Below, piece by piece: positions 1-47,984 of a stretch of 64,000 nucleotides of DNA (position 1 is the stretch's first letter; each line of letters opens with the position of its first letter). A model generated the notes under the pieces. That model saw nothing but the letters and a program-made list of their open reading frames with translations. It did not search any database and was not told the origin of the DNA. Position numbers and translations under genes: made by a program. This DNA comes from Homarus americanus (Eukaryota; Arthropoda; Malacostraca; Decapoda; Nephropidae): assembly GCF_018991925.1 (NCBI RefSeq), contig NW_024737068.1, forward strand, positions 6,327,001 to 6,391,000. The letters are read 5' to 3'.

Positions 1-480
1 AGTGTAAGGAACCGCTCAAGTTTTACTGTTTGAGGAAGAACTTGGTTGTAAGTACAATAAAACCATCGAAGTAGATTATCAAACATCCATAGGTTTAATT
101 TTCCCCTCTTAATCGGACCTCACAGTTGCTACGATAAATGGATAAATTTTCCGAAGTTCGTATCTGAAATTTTCACTTAAGTGGTTTACATTACGACACA
201 TTGCAAAGATGGGCTGTAGAAAGTTAGTATGCTAAATAATTATCTTAACTAACTCACTTAAACAGCGTTCATAGGTTAAACATCTACGTGACTCAGGCTA
301 CGAGGCATGAGTATGGATTTTGAGTAGCTCGTATATGTCAAATTTTCTCTTATGTAGTTTACTTAAATTGCATTTAAGGTTCTCATGTTAAACTGACCAT
401 ACTAACTGGAGATGCAAAACGTATCTGAGCGGCTGAGAATACATTCATGCTCGTATATAAAGATGGTGGTCAATGTGGAG
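1..480 (-). repeat. Decayed copies of the ~87-bp CTTAAG-type tandem repeat
   Basis: No gene is visible here. Motifs resembling CACTTAAGTGGTTTACAT recur near 165, 255 and 357, about 90-100 bases apart, with ACTGGAGATG nearby at about 407. These are the reverse-complement hallmarks of the repeat seen clearly at 11.7-12.1, 13.0-13.3, 27.2-27.5 and 56.8-57.1 kb. The copies are strongly diverged, so the assignment is tentative. Confidence 0.4.
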
Positions 481-1506
481 TCGAAATTTCCCCTAAACTC
501 GACTGTCAGGAATGAGTTCTCTTATACACAGCTATGAGGGAAAATTGACGTTAGGAGAGTTTAAGAATCCCGTCCAGTGTCCGGATTTACAATACTGCAT
601 AACGAAACTGAGTTCATAAAGCCTCATTGCTACAGGGAGGGGAGGGAAGAGGGGCACACGTTCGTCTGGCGGAGCTTCTATAAGAGGGTCTTTGTGAGGA
701 GAAGGGAAGGTTTATCTGGTTTAGCTTCCAAAGGTCCGCCCCTCTAAATCACGCGTGACGTCTTCAGAGAGTAAAGTATGGATATTAAACCCAACTGTGT
801 CTACTTTTGATAAGTGATTTGAGGCCAGACAACACATCCAGCACAACTCTGAGCCACTACCCGTACTAGTCCACAATCCAATGAGGAAATCTTCACGTGT
901 TTACTCACAAATGGACAGTGTTGTGTGATAATAAATTTGACATTAATTTATTATGTCCATTCACTATTAACAATATAAAACCCACATAGCATCACATACA
1001 GCCATACAGATACACATAAACACACATATAGATAACTAGAGGCGTATATCTCTCTGTACTTTTAATTGTCGATAACTAGTGTATATAATAACCTAAAATA
1101 CTCGCTTAAAACCTTAGTCGTTGGAGCGCAGTCATAACATTATATCATAAACACTTACAGACACCCGTGCATCGTAGACTTCATGCTGTACCGCCACATT
1201 GTCTAGCTCGGTACTTGCGGCCAGACTGTGTGTAGCTGCGAGTTATTAGTTCCCACAGAGACACTAGATCCTTGGTCACGAGCAGGGGCACCAGTCTGTC
1301 TCCCTCCGTGTACCTTTGACCACTGAGTTACTCCATATAAAGGTTTGATCATAAGCTCATTGGATACACAACATAAGGGTATCCTGGGTAGGTAGTTAGT
1401 ATTTAATATTTTGTGTATTTTGGTGAAATTATGTTCAACGAGGACACTACATACTGCATCTCATCGTATGTGTGGTATGTGACTGACATCTTAGGCTGAC
1501 CTGTAA
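480..1506. other. Non-coding stretch with no recognisable gene
   Basis: AT-rich sequence with stops in all frames and no RNA gene or tandem array that I can recognise, apart from the GTCTGGCG repeat copy at about 655-735. It ends with an in-frame TAA immediately before the RNase H-coding fragment. Confidence 0.5.
655..735 (+). repeat. Dispersed GTCTGGCG repeat, single copy
   Basis: The core TTCGTCTGGCGGAGCTTC (662-679) is followed by TATAAGAGGGTCTTTGTGAG. A second degenerate core, TTATCTGGTTTAGCTTCC, lies about 50 bases further on. The same motif with its AAGAG...GTGAG follow-on recurs at 31.48, 31.54, 31.60, 31.70, 42.90 and 42.97 kb. Confidence 0.65.
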
Positions 1507-2358
1507 ATGTGTTGTGATGTACTTGGCAAATCCCACAAGAATCTAGGTTTCTTCTCCCGTCCTCATGCCCCTGAGCCTATCAAACTGTCTCTCAGAGTTT
1601 CTGACGGGGCATCCTCCACTCAGGCTGAACTAATAGCCCTCCTTGCTGCCCTTCTCGCTGAGGAAGAAGCAGATGGTTTCTGCCCCTTGCTTGTCTGCTG
1701 CGATTCCAGGTCTGCTCTCGACGGGATCGCATTTGGATCTGGGGAAAATAAGGACCTCATCCTCCGAATACGAGGGTTAACATCCACACTTCAGGATGCA
1801 GGCCGCCCTGTGACATTCCTATGGATACCCAGTCATGTCGGTATCTTGGGGAATGAGGCAGCAGATGACCTTGCCAAGACTGGCTGCAACAAGGCCACAC
1901 CTGACTACGTTGTTCCTCGAACACTCTTACAGATTAGGACCCAAATCCGCCGCAAACAGAGAGAAGCTCGGGAAGCAGCCATCCCCCTGGACTCCCCGCC
2001 CACATGGTACGATGTCCTCCGTAAACTTCCTGACCTCTCGTACGTCTACGGGAAAGGGTCGCGGAAGGGGGACGTGATTGCTGCCCGTATCATCATTGGG
2101 TATGACTTTGCTTGGGAGATTGGTATCCCCGCATCCCCTGAGCAACGCTCTTGTGCGTTATGCAGAAGACCCGACAGCCGCACCCTTATTCACTACCTCC
2201 TAAGATGTCCCCACACACAACGCTTCCGTGACGCCTGCTGGACCACCACTCCACGACCCCCTGACGGAGACACGATGATCCTCCCAATACTGGCCAGATA
2301 TTTTGTAAATAATATTGATTATGTGTTAAAGGAATATCCTTCCTTCCTTAGGCTTTAG
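1507..2358 (+). pseudogene. LINE reverse transcriptase C-terminus: RNase H plus CCHC-like motif (283 codons)
   Basis: RNase H cleaves the RNA strand of RNA:DNA hybrids during retrotransposition. Visible features are the STQAEL motif with catalytic Glu41, the CCDSRSAL motif with Asp66, the WIPSHVGI..NEAADDLAK signature (residues 106-124, last acidic residue Asp120/121), and a C-terminal C-x2-C-x9-H-x4-C motif (Cys216, Cys219, His229, Cys234) typical of LINE ORF2 ends. The first catalytic aspartate (the usual DGS box) is absent because the element is 5' truncated. A TAA sits directly before the first ATG, so this ATG is only the first in the open stretch, not a real start. The frame is otherwise intact for 283 codons, which suggests a fairly young insertion. 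It cannot encode a working enzyme. Confidence 0.88.
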
Positions 2359-2474
2359 TAAGCCCCTTTATAATATTTATACTGTATATACTTGTCACAC
2401 CTGTCAGATGCTTCTGGTGTCATTGTACAGGGGTACCTAGTGACAGCACTAGGATCCCGCTTCCTCTATCAAGG

Positions 2475-2480
2475 AATAAA
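2475..2480 (+). terminator. Poly(A) signal AATAAA of the truncated LINE
   Basis: The hexamer lies 117 bases after the RNase H stop codon and is followed directly by the CAATTGAAATTGAAT tail that marks the element's 3' end. Confidence 0.6.
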
Positions 2481-2495
2481 CAATTGAAATTGAAT

Positions 2496-2880
2496 CTAGG
2501 TTACCCAGTCACGACACACGCTCTTGTTTACTTCCATTCAGTGTGGGAAAAAAAGGAAAAAATGCCTTCAATTGTTTTCAGTACTGTACATGAAAACGTT
2601 TTGGCGCTCAGCTTACAGGATCAAACCTCGACCTGTTTTCAGAAATTTGAAGCAATTACAGAACATTATTTTTATTTGACACATCATCGAGACACTGTTA
2701 TGCGAGTAAATACGTTTATTAAATGCTTTTGATTTATGTGTGGAATGTCTGTTTATGAATAATTAATTTGATGACTCAGTGAATAATTTAGCGTATGAGT
2801 CATTAAAACTCTATCCACACCTTCTCAGCCTCATCTATGGATTTCAATAGATTTGCCCAACAAATATCCAGTCAAAAGTT
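2496..2880. other. Non-coding stretch, nothing recognised
   Basis: Sequence between the LINE 3' end and the TAGGATAAG repeat. An 82-codon open frame is present but shows no recognisable motif. Confidence 0.4.
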
Positions 2881-3230
2881 TTTTTTTTGTTAGGATAAGG
2901 GGCCTTTACGACAGGATAAGTGGTTTTTAGGGTAATTTAAATAGATTCTAGGTTAGGAAGTTTTTTTAGTTGTATTAGGGATTTTTAGGGTAGGAAAAAG
3001 GGTTATTTTTCAGGATTATGTTTTTGGGGGGCGAGGATAAGCCTTTTTTTATGTAAGGATAAATGCTTTTCTGCCTAAGATAAGTTATTTTAGTAAATAG
3101 TCAATGGTTTTAGGACAGGATAGAGAGTTCTTAGAGCAGGATATGAAGGTCTTTTATAGCAGGATACGATGTTTTTTAGGGCAGGATAGAGCATTTTTAC
3201 GATAGGGTATTTTTTTAGGATGACAGACGT
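2880..3230. repeat. Degenerate tandem repeat built on TTTTAGGnCAGGATA
   Basis: The motif CAGGATA(A/G) with neighbouring TTTTTAG recurs about every 25-40 bases (for example 2911, 3117, 3136, 3160, 3182). The spacing is irregular, which suggests an old, decayed minisatellite. Confidence 0.55.
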
Positions 3231-6599: not shown

Positions 6600-9137
6600 C
6601 TCCCCCCCCCCCCTCCTCCTTCACCACCATCCACTGCTCCTCCACCAAGTTTTAGGAGGCCTTGCCAACCCCCTCTCCCCTCTCCACTCCCTCCCTCTTA
6701 TAACTCTATCCATCTACCCTCCTCTCCCACCATCTCATTCCACCACCTACACATTATAATCAACCGCTCCTTCCTCCATTTGTTCCTCACCTCCACCATG
6801 CACCACCTTCTCTTCCACCATCACCACCACCATACCACCTTCTCTCCCACCATCACCACCACCATGCATCACCTTCTCTCCCACCACCACCTCCGTGCAC
6901 CACCTTCTCTCCACTATCACCACCACCATGCACCACCTTCTCTCCCACCATCACCACCACCATGCATCACCTTCTCTCCCACATCACCACCACCATACCA
7001 CCTTCTCTCCCACCATCCACCACCATGCACCACCTTCTCTCCCCTCCATCACCACCACCATACCACCTTCTCTTCACCATCACCACCACCATCCACCTTC
7101 TCTCCCACCATCACCTCCACCATGCACCACCTTCTCTCCCACCATCACCTCCACCATGCACCACCTTCTCTTCCACCATCCTACCACCATGCACCACCTT
7201 CTCTCCCACCATCACCACCACCATGCATCACCTTCTCTCCCACCATCACCTCCACCATGCACCACCTTCTCTTCCACATCACCTCCACCATGCCACCTTC
7301 TCTCCCCACCATCACCACCACCATGCATCACCTTCTCTCCCACCATCACCACCATGCACCACCTTCTCCCACCATCACCTCCACCATGCCACCTTCTCTT
7401 CACCATCCCTCCACTGCACCACCTTCTCTCCCCCATCACCACCATGCATCATCTTCTCTCCCACCATCACCACCACCATGCATCACCTTCTCCCACCATC
7501 ACCACCACCATACCTTCTCTCCCACCATCACCACCACCATGCCACCTTCTCCTCACATCACCACCACCATGCACCTTCTCTCCCACCATCACCACCACCA
7601 TGCACCACCTTCTCTCCCACCATCACCTCCACCATGCACCACCTTCTCTTCCACCATCCCTCCACCATGCATCACCTTCTCTCACCATCCACACCACCAT
7701 GCATCACCTTCTCCCCATCACCACCACCATGCCACCTTCTCTCCACCATCACCACCACCATGCACACCTTCTCTCCCACCATCACCTCCACCATGCCACC
7801 TTCTCTTCCACCATCACCACCACCATGCATCACCTTCTCTCCCCCATCACCTCCACCATGCCACCTTCTCTCCCACCATCACCTCCACCATGCACCACCT
7901 TTTCCCACCATCACCACCACCATGCACCTTCTCCTCCACCATCACCTCCACCATGCCCCTCTTCCCATCCACCACCATGCACCACCTTCTCCCACCATCA
8001 CCTCCACCATGCACCACCTTCTCTCCACCATCACCTCCACCATACCACCTTCTCTTCCACCATCACCACCACCATGCATCACCTTCTCTCCCCATCACCA
8101 CCACCATGCATCACCTTCTCTCCCACCATCACCACCACCATGCCACCTTCTCTCCCACCATCACCACCACCATGCATCACCTTCTCTCCCACCATCACCA
8201 CCACCATGCACCACCTTCTCTCCCACCATCACCTCCACCATGCCACCTTCTCTTCCACCATCCTCCACCATGCATCACCTTCTCTCCCACCATCCACCAC
8301 CACCATGCATCACTTCTCCCCATCACCACCACCATGCCACCTTCTCTCCCCACCATCACCTCCACCATGCCACCTTCTCTTCCACCATCACCACCACCAT
8401 GCCACCTTCTCTCCACCATCACCTCCACCATGCACCTTCTCTCCCACCATCACCTCCACCATGCACCACCTTCTCTTCCACCATCACCACCATGCATCAC
8501 CTTCTCTCCCACCATCACCACCACCATGCATCACCTTCTCTCCCATCACCACTAAGCACCACCTTCTCCACACCACCACCATGCTATTCTCTCCCACCAT
8601 CACCACCACCATGCAACCTTCTCTCCCCACCATCACCACCACCATGCATCACCTTCTCTCCACCATCACCACCACCATGCATCACCTTCTCTCCCACCAT
8701 CACCACCACCATGCACCACCTTCTCTCCCACCATCACCACCACCATGCATCATCTTCTCTCCCACCATCCTCCACCATGCACCACCTTCTCTCCCACCAT
8801 CACCACCACCGCACATCTTCTCTCCCACCATCACCACCACCATGCATCACCTTCTCTCCCACCATCACCACCACCATGCACCACCTTCTCTCCCACCATC
8901 ACCACCACCATGCACCACCTTCTCTCCCACCCACCACCACCATGCATCACCTTCTCCCCACCATCACCACCACCATCACCACCACCATGCACCACCTTCT
9001 CTCCCACATCACCTCACCATACCACCTTCTCTTCCACCATCCCACCACCATGCATCATTCTCTCCCACCATCACCTCCACCATGCATCACCTTCTCTCCC
9101 ACGACCACCACCATGCACCACCACCATCTCTCCCTAT
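6600..9137. repeat. 34-bp minisatellite, ~2.5 kb
   Basis: The unit combines CACCTTCTCTCCCACCATC with ACCACCACCATGCAT, about 34 bases, repeated roughly 70 times with many small indels. Two sub-types alternate: CACCACCACCATGCATCACC and CACCTCCACCATGCACCACC. Because 34 is one more than a multiple of three and the unit holds no stop codon, all three forward frames stay open for up to 749 codons and cycle through His-, Pro- and Ser-rich blocks. This is an artefact, not a gene. The first ~180 bases (6600-6780) are less regular C-rich sequence. Confidence 0.95.
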
Positions 9138-43222: not shown

Positions 43223-43605
43223 GAAATGTGTGTTTATATACCAATGCGTAAGTGTGTATAACAAATAACTTTCTAATTTCATATTTTTACAGTCATCTGA
43301 GTTTTATTATCAAATTTCTAAATAAGTGAAGGAAAAATACAGTAGCAGCCAGGTGTGGTGCAGAGACCTGATACCCGCAGCCACTTTTCTCAACGTCGTT
43401 TCCATTTACGAAGAAAATGAATCACAACTGGTATAAGTTTTTTTCCTGGCCAATTTTTTCCCGAAAACCGAACATTTCTTTTTCCAGGAATTTTCAAACG
43501 GTGTCATTTTTGTTGCCGTCGTTTTTCTACAATATATTTTTGTTAAGATCGTCATCACATTATAATTTGCTTATTAATATCTCTCAAGTAGCAGTAATAG
43601 TTTAA

Positions 43606-43619
43606 GTAGTAGTAGCAGC

Positions 43620-43682
<63 letters not shown>
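43606..43682. repeat. (TAG)n microsatellite, left flank of the retroelement
   Basis: About 25 AGT/TAG triplets with two AGC interruptions, ending where non-repetitive GGGAGCGAGAATTTC begins. It is in the same register and strand as the (GTA)n that follows the element at 47515. Confidence 0.95.
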
Positions 43683-43683
<1 letters not shown>

Positions 43684-43684
<1 letters not shown>

Positions 43685-43760
43685 GAGCGAGAATTTCACA
43701 GTGTGTCGATGAACGTTTGATGTCACCTTGAGCATCATCGCCGACGGCTCTTCTCATTCC
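43684..43760 (+). other. Possible structured 5' end of the retroelement RNA
   Basis: GGAGCGAGAA (43684-43693) can pair with TTCTCATTCC (43751-43760) with one mismatch and one G-U pair. Inside it, GTCGATGA (43705-43712) pairs with TCATCG..GAC (43735-43745) with a two-base bulge. The stem starts within a base or two of the element boundary. R2-group elements carry self-cleaving HDV-like ribozymes in this position. I could not fit the full HDV double pseudoknot here, so only the nested stems are claimed. Confidence 0.35.
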
Positions 43761-44035
43761 TTACGACATTAAACGCAAATATTGATCGTGTTCACCGGCG
43801 ATCTACAAGTAAGCCAGTGAGTGTTTGAATGGTGGGTGGCTGGAGTTGCCAAGTGTCAGTGCCAGTGTGTCGATAGGCCTACCCTAGCAAGGGTGGCATC
43901 GCGACTCTCGCCCCTATGGGGCCAAGTGCCTCAAGTAACGGCCACTCCATGTAATGTCGGCCGACCCAGTGAGTATATATAACTAATGTTACATCAGCGA
44001 GACCATAGAAATGGTGGCTATCTCTACCAAAGTGA

Positions 44036-44206
44036 CATAATCAAGTGTTAGGTGTGACAATTCTTGCTCCCAGTGGATTATTCTCATGTGTGGATTATCG
44101 TCCACATGGGGGGTGCCCGACACAACCACACGCGCGCGTATGCCCTTACTGTACGGACACCACAGGCCAGGCCGTCACTTCTGTGCCTCATACGCATAAG
44201 ATCTAG
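44036..44206 (+). other. Leader segment with CPYC...HTH in frame with the ORF
   Basis: In the same frame as the main ORF, and separated from it by one TAG (44204-44206), an open stretch encodes SCVDYRPHGGC and VCPYCTDTT...PHTH, a C-x2-C...H-x-H arrangement. R2-group proteins begin with zinc fingers. This may be a lost N-terminal extension, a separate leader peptide or chance. Confidence 0.3.
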
Positions 44207-44278
44207 TTTCTTCGTCCGTATGGGCCCAATAGCAGAGGTCGGAGGCGGAAATATCTGTCGCCCAAGGTGCTGGTCACT

Positions 44279-46069
44279 ATGCCTGGCAACAGTCTTTGCT
44301 GCGTCTGTGCTAGCCCGAACCAAAACTGCACAAACTGTCGTTGTGCGAGAAACAATCGATCATGTGTGGATTGCAGGAAGCTAGACCAGTGTCGGAACCC
44401 ACGTGGCAGGGAGCCGACACAGGCGGCCACAGTGGATATCGCCGGGACCCAACCACCCGATGATATCCGAAATGATAGCAGTGAGTCTACTCAACTCGAA
44501 AATGTAGTACTAATAAATGCTGCTCCCTCAGTAGCAGGTGTCCAGGAGGAGAATGAGAGACAGCCGCCTCAGTGGAAAGGCATGTCGATGGAAAATGCAG
44601 GCGTATGGGTCAAAGAAACCTACTCAGAAATTGTTAAGTGGTCGCCCGTTAACTTATTTGAACCACCCAAGTGTGCGGCCACCAAAGAAATGATTCGGGA
44701 GATGACTTTCTTCATGACTGATTACACTCAGGACCGCTTCCTCGCCCCCCTAGCTCTTCAAATACTGGCAATAATACCACATCTATTTTGTCAGAGGACA
44801 CACACAAAGGCTAAGCACAAAGAAAATGTGGCAGCAATGAAGAGAAGATCGACAATGTGGCGGACTGGGGCCCTAGATGATCTCCTATGTGAAGCAAGAA
44901 CACTGCAGGAGAGACTAAAATCTACGGGTGACGGAAAGCAAAACACCGATGACGTGGCAAGAAAATTTGGAAACAAAATGCGTGTGGGAAAAGTGTCTCT
45001 CGCGGTAAGATCTCTCACTCAGGAATCTTCCGGTGGGGTGATGCCAATAAACAGAGCGACATTAGATCTATTGAAAGAGAAACATCCCCCTGCAAGTGAA
45101 GTTGAAGGCATCAGGCTCCATGGTGACTATATCCCACCAAATGCTGTCCTGTTCGAGAAAATAACAGGAAAGATGGTGTGGAAAAAGGCACTGAAGACTC
45201 GTGGAGGAGCCGGCCCTTCAGGTCTGGATGCAAACGGTTGGAGAGTAATCCTCAGCACAAACAAGTTTGGCCCTGTAGCAAGCGATCTCTGCACTGCCAT
45301 TGCCGCCCTTGCAAGAAAGCTTGCATCCTCTTGCTGCCATCACCTCCAGGCCCTGACGGCCTGCTGCCTTATTCCTCTGGAAAAGAAACCAGGATGTAGA
45401 CCTATAGGGGTGGGGGAAGTGCTGAGGCGGATTATCGGAAAGTGCATAATGGAGGTGGTAAAGGACGATGTCAGGGCAGCAGCAGGGAACCTACAAGTGT
45501 GTGCTGGCCACCAGGCTGGTGGGGAGGCGGCCATTCACGCTATGAGATTGATATTCGAGCAGCGTGATTGTGAGGCCGTTCTCCTGGTGGATGCTTCAAA
45601 CGCATTCAACATACTTAACCGCAAGGCTGCACTGCACAACATCAAGATCAAGTGTCCTAGCTTTGCGATGTATGTTGAAAATTCGTATAGGAATCCATCA
45701 GACCTCTACATAGTAAACAATAAGGCTCTACGAGGTGATACCATCCTACAGTCGACTGAGGGAACAACACAGGGGGACCCCGTTGCAATGGCAATGTATG
45801 CAATAGGCCTATCAGTGCTCCAACAAGAAATAAAGTTTGAAACAACTGGGGTCAAACAAGTGGCATATGCTGATGACCTCACAGGAGCAGGAAAAGTGGA
45901 GGACATCAAAAAGTGGTGGGACCTGGTAACATCGCGAGGTCCACAAATAGGGTACCACCCAAACGCCAGCAAATCCTTCCTCATCGTGAAGCCAGATCAT
46001 TATGATCGGGCTTTGGAGGTTTTCGGCGAAAGTGAGGTCAAAATAATAAGGACGGCCAAAGACATCTAG
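44279..46069 (+). pseudogene. Retroelement ORF, part 1: Cys-rich N-terminus and reverse transcriptase
   Basis: 596 codons from the first ATG in the frame. Residues 7-38 form a Cys-rich knot (Cys7, 8, 10, 17, 20, 22, 29, 32, 38), probably for nucleic-acid binding. The reverse transcriptase follows: GGAGPSGLDANGW (about 309-321), PLEKKPGCRPIGVGEVLRR (fingers), motif A LLVDASNAFNILN with Asp438, the TTQGDPVAMAMYA block (motif B), and motif C YADD at residues 530-533 (45866-45877). A GYHPNASKS block follows in motif D/E position. All catalytic aspartates are present. The frame ends at TAG 46067-46069, but homologous sequence (LGAVIGTTDF) continues at once in another frame, so a single-base shift near 46058-46064 broke the ORF. 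There is no apurinic endonuclease domain upstream, which fits an RLE-type element. Confidence 0.88.
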
Positions 46070-46764
46070 GCGCAGTAATTGGCACTACGGACTTCAAGAC
46101 CCAGTACGTATCGGGAAAGGTGAATGAGTGGGTTAGCGAAATCCAAGCTCTATCGGAGATCGCTAACACAGAGCCACATGCGGCCTTTGCAGCATTCACC
46201 CATGGAGTCAAGCATCGTTGGAACTACCTGATGCGTACCATCCCTGAGATCGGACCCCTCCTCCACCCTTTGGAAGAAGCAATCAGGGTCAAGTTCATTC
46301 CCAAACTAGTGAAACACCCTGACTTAACCCGAGCAGAAAGAACACTTCTTGCACTTCCACCAAGACTGGGAGGGATGGGACTAACTAATCCAGAGGAGAT
46401 TGCTGACTCTGAACATCAAAATTCACTTAAGCTCACGGCAGCCCTCACTGACCACATAATAGCCCAGAATGCAACAGGGGAAGTGGACACCAGCGAAGTT
46501 AATAAGATCCGTAGGTCCATTACAACAGATCGGCAGCACTGCCAAAATGACATGTTGCAGCAACTATTGCTGCATGTTCCAGAAAATTTGACAAAAAAAG
46601 TAGCTATAGCGCAGGAGGTGGGCGCCTCGAACTGGTTAACTACGTTACCGATAAGGGCAAATGGTTTCAGCCTTAACAAACAAGAATTTACAGATGCCAT
46701 TGCTCTAAGGTACGGTTGGCCAGTAGATGGTTTGCCCTCCCAATGTGTGTGGCTCTCCCTATGA
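46061..46764 (+). pseudogene. Retroelement ORF, part 2: thumb/connector region
   Basis: Continues the polyprotein after the first frameshift. It starts with LGAVIGTTDF, then a helix-rich segment including HRWNYLMRTIPEI and ERTLLALPPRLGGMGLTNP, the usual thumb-to-endonuclease linker of R2-like proteins (the P-R-x-G-G-x-G-L motif is shared by many LINE reverse transcriptases). The frame is lost at about 46747 in a GTGTGTG run, two bases short of continuity with the next Cys. The stop at 46764 is a product of that shift. An internal ATG at 46120 is not a start. Confidence 0.8.
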
Positions 46765-47400
46765 TGGCGATCACGCCATGGTCTGCAAGAAGGGGGCTTC
46801 ATATGCATGAGGCATGACGAGGTAAGGGATCTCACAGCAAATATGTTGAAGGAAATCTGCCGGGACGTCATGGTAGAACCGACCCTCCTTCCACTGGATG
46901 GCGAGATCTTCCAACACAGGACTTCAAACACATCTAACGAAGCCCGTGTGGACGTCAGTGCTCGAGGATTCTGGACGCGGGGACAGCGAGCCTTCTTCGA
47001 CATCAGGATTTTTGATCCCATGGCCGTTTGTCACCGTAACCTAGCTCTCGATGCTGCACATAGGAGGAACGAGAACGACAAGAGAAGGGCATATGGGGAG
47101 AGAATTCAAAATGTCGATCAAGGCAGCTTCACTCCGCTAGTGTTCACAACCTCTGGTGGGATGGGCCCAAGCGCAAGATGTTTCTACGCCAGACTCGCGG
47201 AGCTGATCTCCGAACAGAAGCAGCAGCCCAGAAGTTATGTCACAGCCTGGATGAGATGTCGACTGTCCTTCTCTCTCCTTCGGTCGGCTTTGCTCTGCCT
47301 CAGGGGAACGAGAGCTTCTGCCCCTACTCCGACAACTGCTGCAGATATTGACTATGAGGCTACAGTCACTGAATGCCGCATAGATCTGCGGCTCAACTAA
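46741..47400 (+). pseudogene. Retroelement ORF, part 3: CCHC-like knuckle and PD-(D/E)XK endonuclease
   Basis: 46744-46786 encodes Cys-x-Cys-x7-His-x3-Cys (the first Cys lies across the GTGTG frameshift), then KKGGF and, after a one-base loss in a G run near 46792, ICMRHDEVRD. The order knuckle, RHD, endonuclease matches R2-superclade C-termini. Counting from the ATG at 46807, the nuclease core is ARVDVSARGFW (Asp49) and QRAFFDIRIFDP (Asp65, followed by Ile-Arg where the family usually has x-Lys), with Y96GERI and GSFTPLVFTTSGGMG after it. Such domains nick the target DNA for target-primed reverse transcription. The Arg in place of Lys may be a family feature. The stop is at 47398-47400. Confidence 0.75.
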
Positions 47401-47453
47401 TTTAACACAGATAGGATAGCTTCTTATGTATTAGGATATTTAATATTAAGGTA

Positions 47454-47459
47454 AATAAA
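47454..47459 (+). terminator. Poly(A) signal of the retroelement
   Basis: AATAAA 54 bases after the stop codon and about 46 bases before the A10 tract at the element's 3' end. The downstream truncated copy has an AATAAA at the matching position (about 47770). Confidence 0.6.
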
Positions 47460-47512
47460 TGGCGGCGAAGGTGTGGCTATTGGGGGAGGCTGGAGGCCAC
47501 GATTAAAAAAAA

Positions 47513-47514
<2 letters not shown>

Positions 47515-47544
<30 letters not shown>

Positions 47545-47610
47545 ATACCAGTAGCGGCAATAGAAGCAGTAGTAATAGTAGTAATAGTAGTAGTAGTTGT
47601 AGTAATAGCA
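47515..47610. repeat. (TAG)n tract between the two retroelement copies
   Basis: Clean GTA triplets directly after the poly(A), decaying into TAGTAATAGTAG and GCAG variants before the second copy. Confidence 0.93.
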
Positions 47611-47827
47611 GGTCTGCATTGCTTTGCCTCAGGGGAACAAAATCACCAGCCCCTCAGCCAACAACAGTCGCAGACAGGGAATGTGAGGCAATAGTCACTG
47701 AATGCGGCATAGATCTGCGGCTTAACGAACTCGGCGACGGTAGCTACTTTTGTATCACGATAGTTAGGTAATAAAGAGTGTGGGGAAGGTATGGCTATAA
47801 GGGGAGGTTGGAGGCCACGTTAAAAAA
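47611..47827 (+). mobile_element. 5'-truncated second copy of the retroelement 3' end
   Basis: 217 bases homologous to 47285-47514: TGCCTCAGGGGAAC, GTCACTGAATGC, GGCATAGATCTGCGGCT, AGGTTGGAGGCCACG, then an A run. It differs by many substitutions and lacks the stop codon at the homologous position, so it is a separate insertion of a related subfamily and not a recent duplication. It is also embedded in TAG triplets on both sides. Confidence 0.85.
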
Positions 47828-47970
47828 GTAGTAGTAGTGGTAGTAGTATTGAAAGCAGGTAGTAAAAGTAATAATAGTAGCAATATTCGTAGTAACAGTA
47901 GTAGTTGTAATTAAAGTAATAGTGGTAGTAGTAGTATTTCGATATACTACTACTACTACTACTACTACTT
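47828..47970. repeat. (TAG)n tract switching to (CTA)n
   Basis: Degenerate TAGTAG with AAT/GGT interruptions to about 47938, then (CTA)n at 47946-47969, forming an inverted TAG/CTA pair. Confidence 0.88.
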
Positions 47971-47984
47971 TGTCACATCGAGGT

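Follow-up and report, generated by a model that had tools for sequence, protein, structure and literature searches.

The window analyzed here, a stretch of 64,000 nucleotides (nt) from Homarus americanus (contig NW_024737068.1, positions 6,327,001 to 6,391,000), contains two copies of a non-long terminal repeat (non-LTR) retrotransposon inside one TAG microsatellite tract, with all features on the forward strand. A TAG array, degenerate and then pure (43588..43682), forms the target of copy 1 on its 5′ side. Copy 1 spans 43683..47514 and ends in poly(A) (47505-47514). The array separating the copies (47515..47610) starts with GTAG directly after this poly(A) and is followed by copy 2 (47611..47827), a 5′-truncated copy of a diverged subfamily, and by a partly degenerate TAG array (47828..47945). 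An earlier note on this DNA had described two copies in a common orientation, with (TAG)n upstream and poly(A) and then (GTA)n downstream, all of which is present in the window sequence; copy 1, which it called near full length, is slightly short, because longer relatives begin approximately 77 nt further 5′. With the element bodies removed in silico, TAG-like sequence on both sides occurs at 178 of 59,922 window positions (0.3%), and at 33 of 59,572 (0.06%) outside this tract. The end of the tract abuts an inverted CTA array (47914-47969), and a long hairpin is predicted for 47895-47980 as single-stranded DNA (z -3.85).

Copy 2 is 73% identical (167/228) to the end of copy 1. Across their 38 shared codons, 4, 6, and 15 differences fall at the first, second, and third codon positions, and synonymous divergence exceeds non-synonymous divergence (dS 0.60, dN 0.17; Fisher p = 0.008), which suggests that the copies diverged mostly within coding lineages, before they inserted. 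Two separate insertions are therefore more probable than one duplicated insertion, bearing out the argument, made previously from the divergence of the copies, against simple duplication.

The reading frame of copy 1 is broken. Its first open reading frame (ORF) stretch (44207..46069) contains a reverse transcriptase (RT; Pfam RVT_1, approximately 45386-45985), and a second stretch (46036..46764) lies past a frameshift between 46045 and 46051. The zinc knuckle region (46742..46795, limits approximate) lies in a stretch that is out of frame and includes a TGA stop (46762-46764), the end of the second ORF stretch. Downstream are a probable restriction-like endonuclease (RLE; 46765..47400) with RHD ... 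RxD ... DxR motifs and a 3′ untranslated region (UTR; 47401..47504), the end of which is GGAGGCCACG plus a few bases. A single ORF with the order RT, knuckle, and C-terminal domain is found in 22 relatives of 960-1085 amino acids (aa; alignment A1), with the exception of P0020, which ends within the C-terminal domain; RVT_1 was found in 21 of the 22, and the knuckle follows the pattern CX1CX7HX3C in 68 of 71 long relatives. Of the RT, CCHC-like knuckle, and PD-(D/E)XK architecture claimed in the earlier note, the first two parts are supported, while sequence motifs together with weak, R2-led fold matches make the C-terminal domain a probable R2-type RLE. Near the N terminus, the window copy encodes a nine-cysteine motif (CCxCx6Cx2CxCx6Cx2Cx5CxN; 44279..44428), in which ten columns are invariant across 16 sequences and all retained in this copy. 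The motif has no significant Pfam match, with none at all for the window copy, and an apparent likeness to the tesmin-type CXC domain found no support in Pfam or PDB. Pfam gave no Myb match in alignments A1 and A3, a search that did not extend to profile comparisons for a diverged Myb, and only single weak matches to C2H2 in the two alignments. Among the matches listed, the named proteins of highest similarity come from Eriocheir sinensis, Chionoecetes opilio, and Scylla paramamosain, and from Penaeus monodon and Penaeus indicus, so that a decapod crustacean is the likely host.

The window's own assembly (2.206 Gb, 34,269 contigs) was searched with the endonuclease stretch as query, and 150 of 16,796 first-look candidates were scored. 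All 150 are 99-100% identical over the query, and at 32 of them, as counted from the table of hits, the open frame is 1000 aa or longer; since scoring covered 150 of the candidates, the copy number is a lower bound. The window copy belongs to a young family of non-LTR retrotransposons with abundant copies and is itself broken; intact relatives exist in the same genome. A separate, closer family, sought with P0169, was rejected: the hits scored, 150 out of 13,599 candidates, are only 58-62% identical to P0169; some rows of this search represent the same places as hits of the endonuclease query. An RVT_1 search of the genome gave 80,434 first-look candidates. Of the 150 hits scored, many fall within long open frames, so further families of reverse transcriptases with open frames are present in the genome.

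Flanks were compared in a first set of 50 loci from the 150 endonuclease hits, namely L011-L040 (30 loci, L011 being the window copy) and L041-L060 (20 loci), using either a strict classifier (21 nt; L057 excluded as below the identity cut) or a loose rule (7 nt of array within 30 nt). Under the strict rule, 37 of 49 3′ flanks are TAG, nine are unclassified, and TTA, TGG, and CTA account for one each; interrupted TAG is present in some of the unclassified flanks (L013, L022, L027, L059). Under the loose rule, a TAG array follows the poly(A) in 43 of 50 copies (42/49 without L011). A second set of 20 further copies gave TAG in 16 of 17 parsed flanks, L080 being the miss, and TAG is visible by eye in the unparsed L068, L072, and L076. 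As background, the strict rule gave 10/8497 in the window outside the locus and 0/5920 in 20 genome windows at fixed coordinates, and the loose rule gave TAG in 5 of 2940 30-mers; the binomial p-value for the 3′ flanks (p < 1e-100) is only indicative, because the copies are not all independent.

Insertion orientation in TAG arrays is nearly always the same, L049 being the only primary copy in a CTA array, i.e., in the opposite orientation. The register is mostly constant as well: 28 of the 37 strict-TAG 3′ flanks start with GTA after the poly(A), and the second set shows this start in 11 of 17. Two observations weigh against a specific TAG target, namely that tandem repeats make up 29% of the window and that a few copies adjoin TTA or TGG repeats (L029, L020); they would fit an element that enters simple repeats or readily melting DNA in general, TAG being merely common here. 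We regard this explanation as very unlikely, since TAA and TTA arrays (27 and 28 of 2940) are commoner in the background than TAG, yet 43 of 50 3′ flanks are TAG, and since orientation and register are nearly fixed.

The 5′ ends were recovered for 32 primary copies, of which 29 are truncated, in a sample biased toward shorter copies because little sequence upstream is available at L011-L040. Among the truncated copies there are 28 different 5′ starts, ranging from 192 to 3011, and a TAG array precedes the break in 21 of 29 under both rules; in the strict-rule analysis, TAG lies on both sides of 19/29 and on at least one side of 25/29. The purity of many arrays straight after the poly(A), which slippage could lengthen, is a further point on the opposing side and would agree with triplets made by the element itself as slippage tails added at insertion. 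This origin is extremely improbable, as TAG immediately precedes 21 of the 29 break points, where the element end is absent, and some 5′ arrays run on into TAA or TTA (L047, L048, L060). Because truncation points differ between copies, the TAG triplets are the target and not part of the element. The common break point and similar flanks of L025 and L045 resemble one duplicated insertion and likewise speak for the opposing side, in that segmental duplication or amplification of the tract might have multiplied one copy together with its TAG flanks; for the family as a whole, 28 different 5′ ends among 29 truncated copies and outer flanks that differ between loci leave this explanation hardly any credibility.

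At 30 truncated junctions, of primaries and neighbors, with a pure TAG 9-mer upstream, the array continues into the element for a mean of 2.03 nt, as against 0.64 nt expected. Element position 1 or 2 is reached by eight copies with upstream sequence recovered. L013, L030, L038, and L048 extend approximately 77 nt further 5′ and then adjoin TAG arrays. At other copies that reach the element start, the upstream TAG stretch is short (L044), a shorter copy is preceded by a short GTAGTAG (L057), the array is absent and an older copy's poly(A) lies just before the insertion (L051), or older element-like sequence adjoins (L054). No Rfam match to an HDV (hepatitis delta virus)-like ribozyme was found at the 5′ end with E <=5 in 43600-44400, at gathering level window-wide, or with E <=1 in L030, L044, L051, and L038, and the window copy folds unremarkably at its 5′ end.

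The flank tabulation that the earlier note had proposed, run on this sample, gave mostly TAG junctions in a mostly fixed register and supports its interpretation of a TAG-microsatellite-targeting element. Neither of the contrary outcomes it had named was found: the other copies do not lie mostly in unrelated sequence (43/50 3′ and 21/29 truncated 5′ flanks are TAG), and the triplets do not belong to the element (29 truncated copies, 28 start points, 21 abutting TAG). With a probability of roughly 0.93, we therefore interpret the family as non-LTR retrotransposons with a probable RLE that insert by target-primed reverse transcription into (TAG)n microsatellites. The 3′ flank mostly begins with (A)GTAGTAG after the poly(A), the 5′ ends vary and meet the array at short matches, and copies stack head to tail. 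In the proposed mechanism, the endonuclease would nick the CTA strand and leave a 3′ end ...CTAC(T), which would prime copying of the poly(A) RNA; truncated complementary DNA ends might then anneal by microhomology to the opposite side of the array. The final A of the tail may be target-derived, and the nick could thus be either TA/G or T/A. As the array persists on both sides of an insertion, several insertions are possible in one tract.

More than one element 3′ end is present at 24 of the 50 loci, and neighboring copies lie on the same strand in 30 cases and on the opposite strand in three. Neighbor copies are TAG-flanked less often than primaries (23/33 3′ and 22/50 5′ flanks under the strict rule). 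Of eight diverged copies from the P0169 search, with 3′ ends at 84-96% identity, six have TAG runs recognizable by eye, and L105 and L106 show mixed TAG/TGG; together with copy 2 at 73% identity, these diverged copies in TAG make the TAG preference appear older than the youngest burst. Similar sequence (GGATGATCGTCATAC...) lies upstream of the insertion at L015, L039, L045, and L059, as if another host repeat carried TAG arrays that get hit repeatedly.

Microsatellite targeting by RLE elements is already known for TAA and TG, and TAG adds another target. Dong elements of the R4/Dong clade, RLE non-LTR elements in a triplet microsatellite like the present family, are reported to target (TAA)n both in Darwinula, an ostracod, and in the majority of insects, molluscs, and cnidarians (PMC7998251), and microsatellite targeting is also reported for DongAg and DongBg (PMC3636483). 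The target here is TAG, unlike the (TAA)n or ribosomal DNA (rDNA) of R4/Dong-type elements, and the nine cysteines differ from the R4/Dong N terminus, reported as Myb-like with zinc finger absent (PMC7998251); the distinction is drawn from published descriptions. By description also, Togen, a fish element near NeSL/HERO, shares microsatellite specificity but is specific for the dinucleotide repeat (TG)n rather than a triplet, and the HERO clade comprises RLE elements of which some families target microsatellites, as here, whereas many are non-specific (PMC4640811). R2 elements (R2Bm, R2Tg), which provide the best PDB profile matches of the window family and are among its best fold matches, have the same order of RT, linker, knuckle, and RLE. 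Their target is reported as 28S rDNA (PMC5035012), whereas that of the window family is TAG; their N terminus is described as zinc fingers with Myb, and the knuckle spacing published for R2, CX2-3CX7-8HX4C (PMC5678591), differs from the CX1CX7HX3C found here. No TAG-targeting element was found in the literature searched, though Repbase and most subscription journals, which lay outside that search, may describe one. The family combines a specific repeated target with variable 5′ truncation, a trait common but not universal in RLE elements. As a guess, the N-terminal cysteine motif might be the protein part that reads TAG. More tentatively than the targeting itself, and with the odds rather against it, the family may represent an RLE lineage distinct from described clades, recognizable by nine cysteines in an N-terminal module and by its shortened knuckle, and specialized on TAG, in which the module reads the triplet, the target is kept, and copies form one-directional chains.

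Relatives sought by protein pattern in viral and genome contig collections were not confirmed. The 3′ UTR pattern had one match in viral contigs (L001), which is unrelated around the match, and the junction pattern had none there and one chance match in the genome contig collection (L002). Repeat-coded N termini were found in none of the C-terminal protein fragments (0 of 120 listed of 267; 0/3), a search that is uninformative because most fragments start at an internal methionine. Elsewhere in the window, an ORF fragment with an RNase H domain (1507-2358; Pfam E 4e-7) is perhaps the 3′ part of another long interspersed nuclear element (LINE), and 6787-9134 is a minisatellite of approximately 2.3 kb with units of 34 and 65 bp.

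These results extend the short-repeat targets found described for RLE retrotransposons, placing TAG beside TAA and TG; the family comprises no fewer than 150 young copies, and open frames are numerous. Comparison with Dong now offers a way to test how such a protein recognizes a repeat of 3 bp. The second half of LINE integration is poorly understood, and the microhomology seen at 5′ junctions is relevant to it. The clustering of copies within repeats would follow from a target that outlasts insertion.
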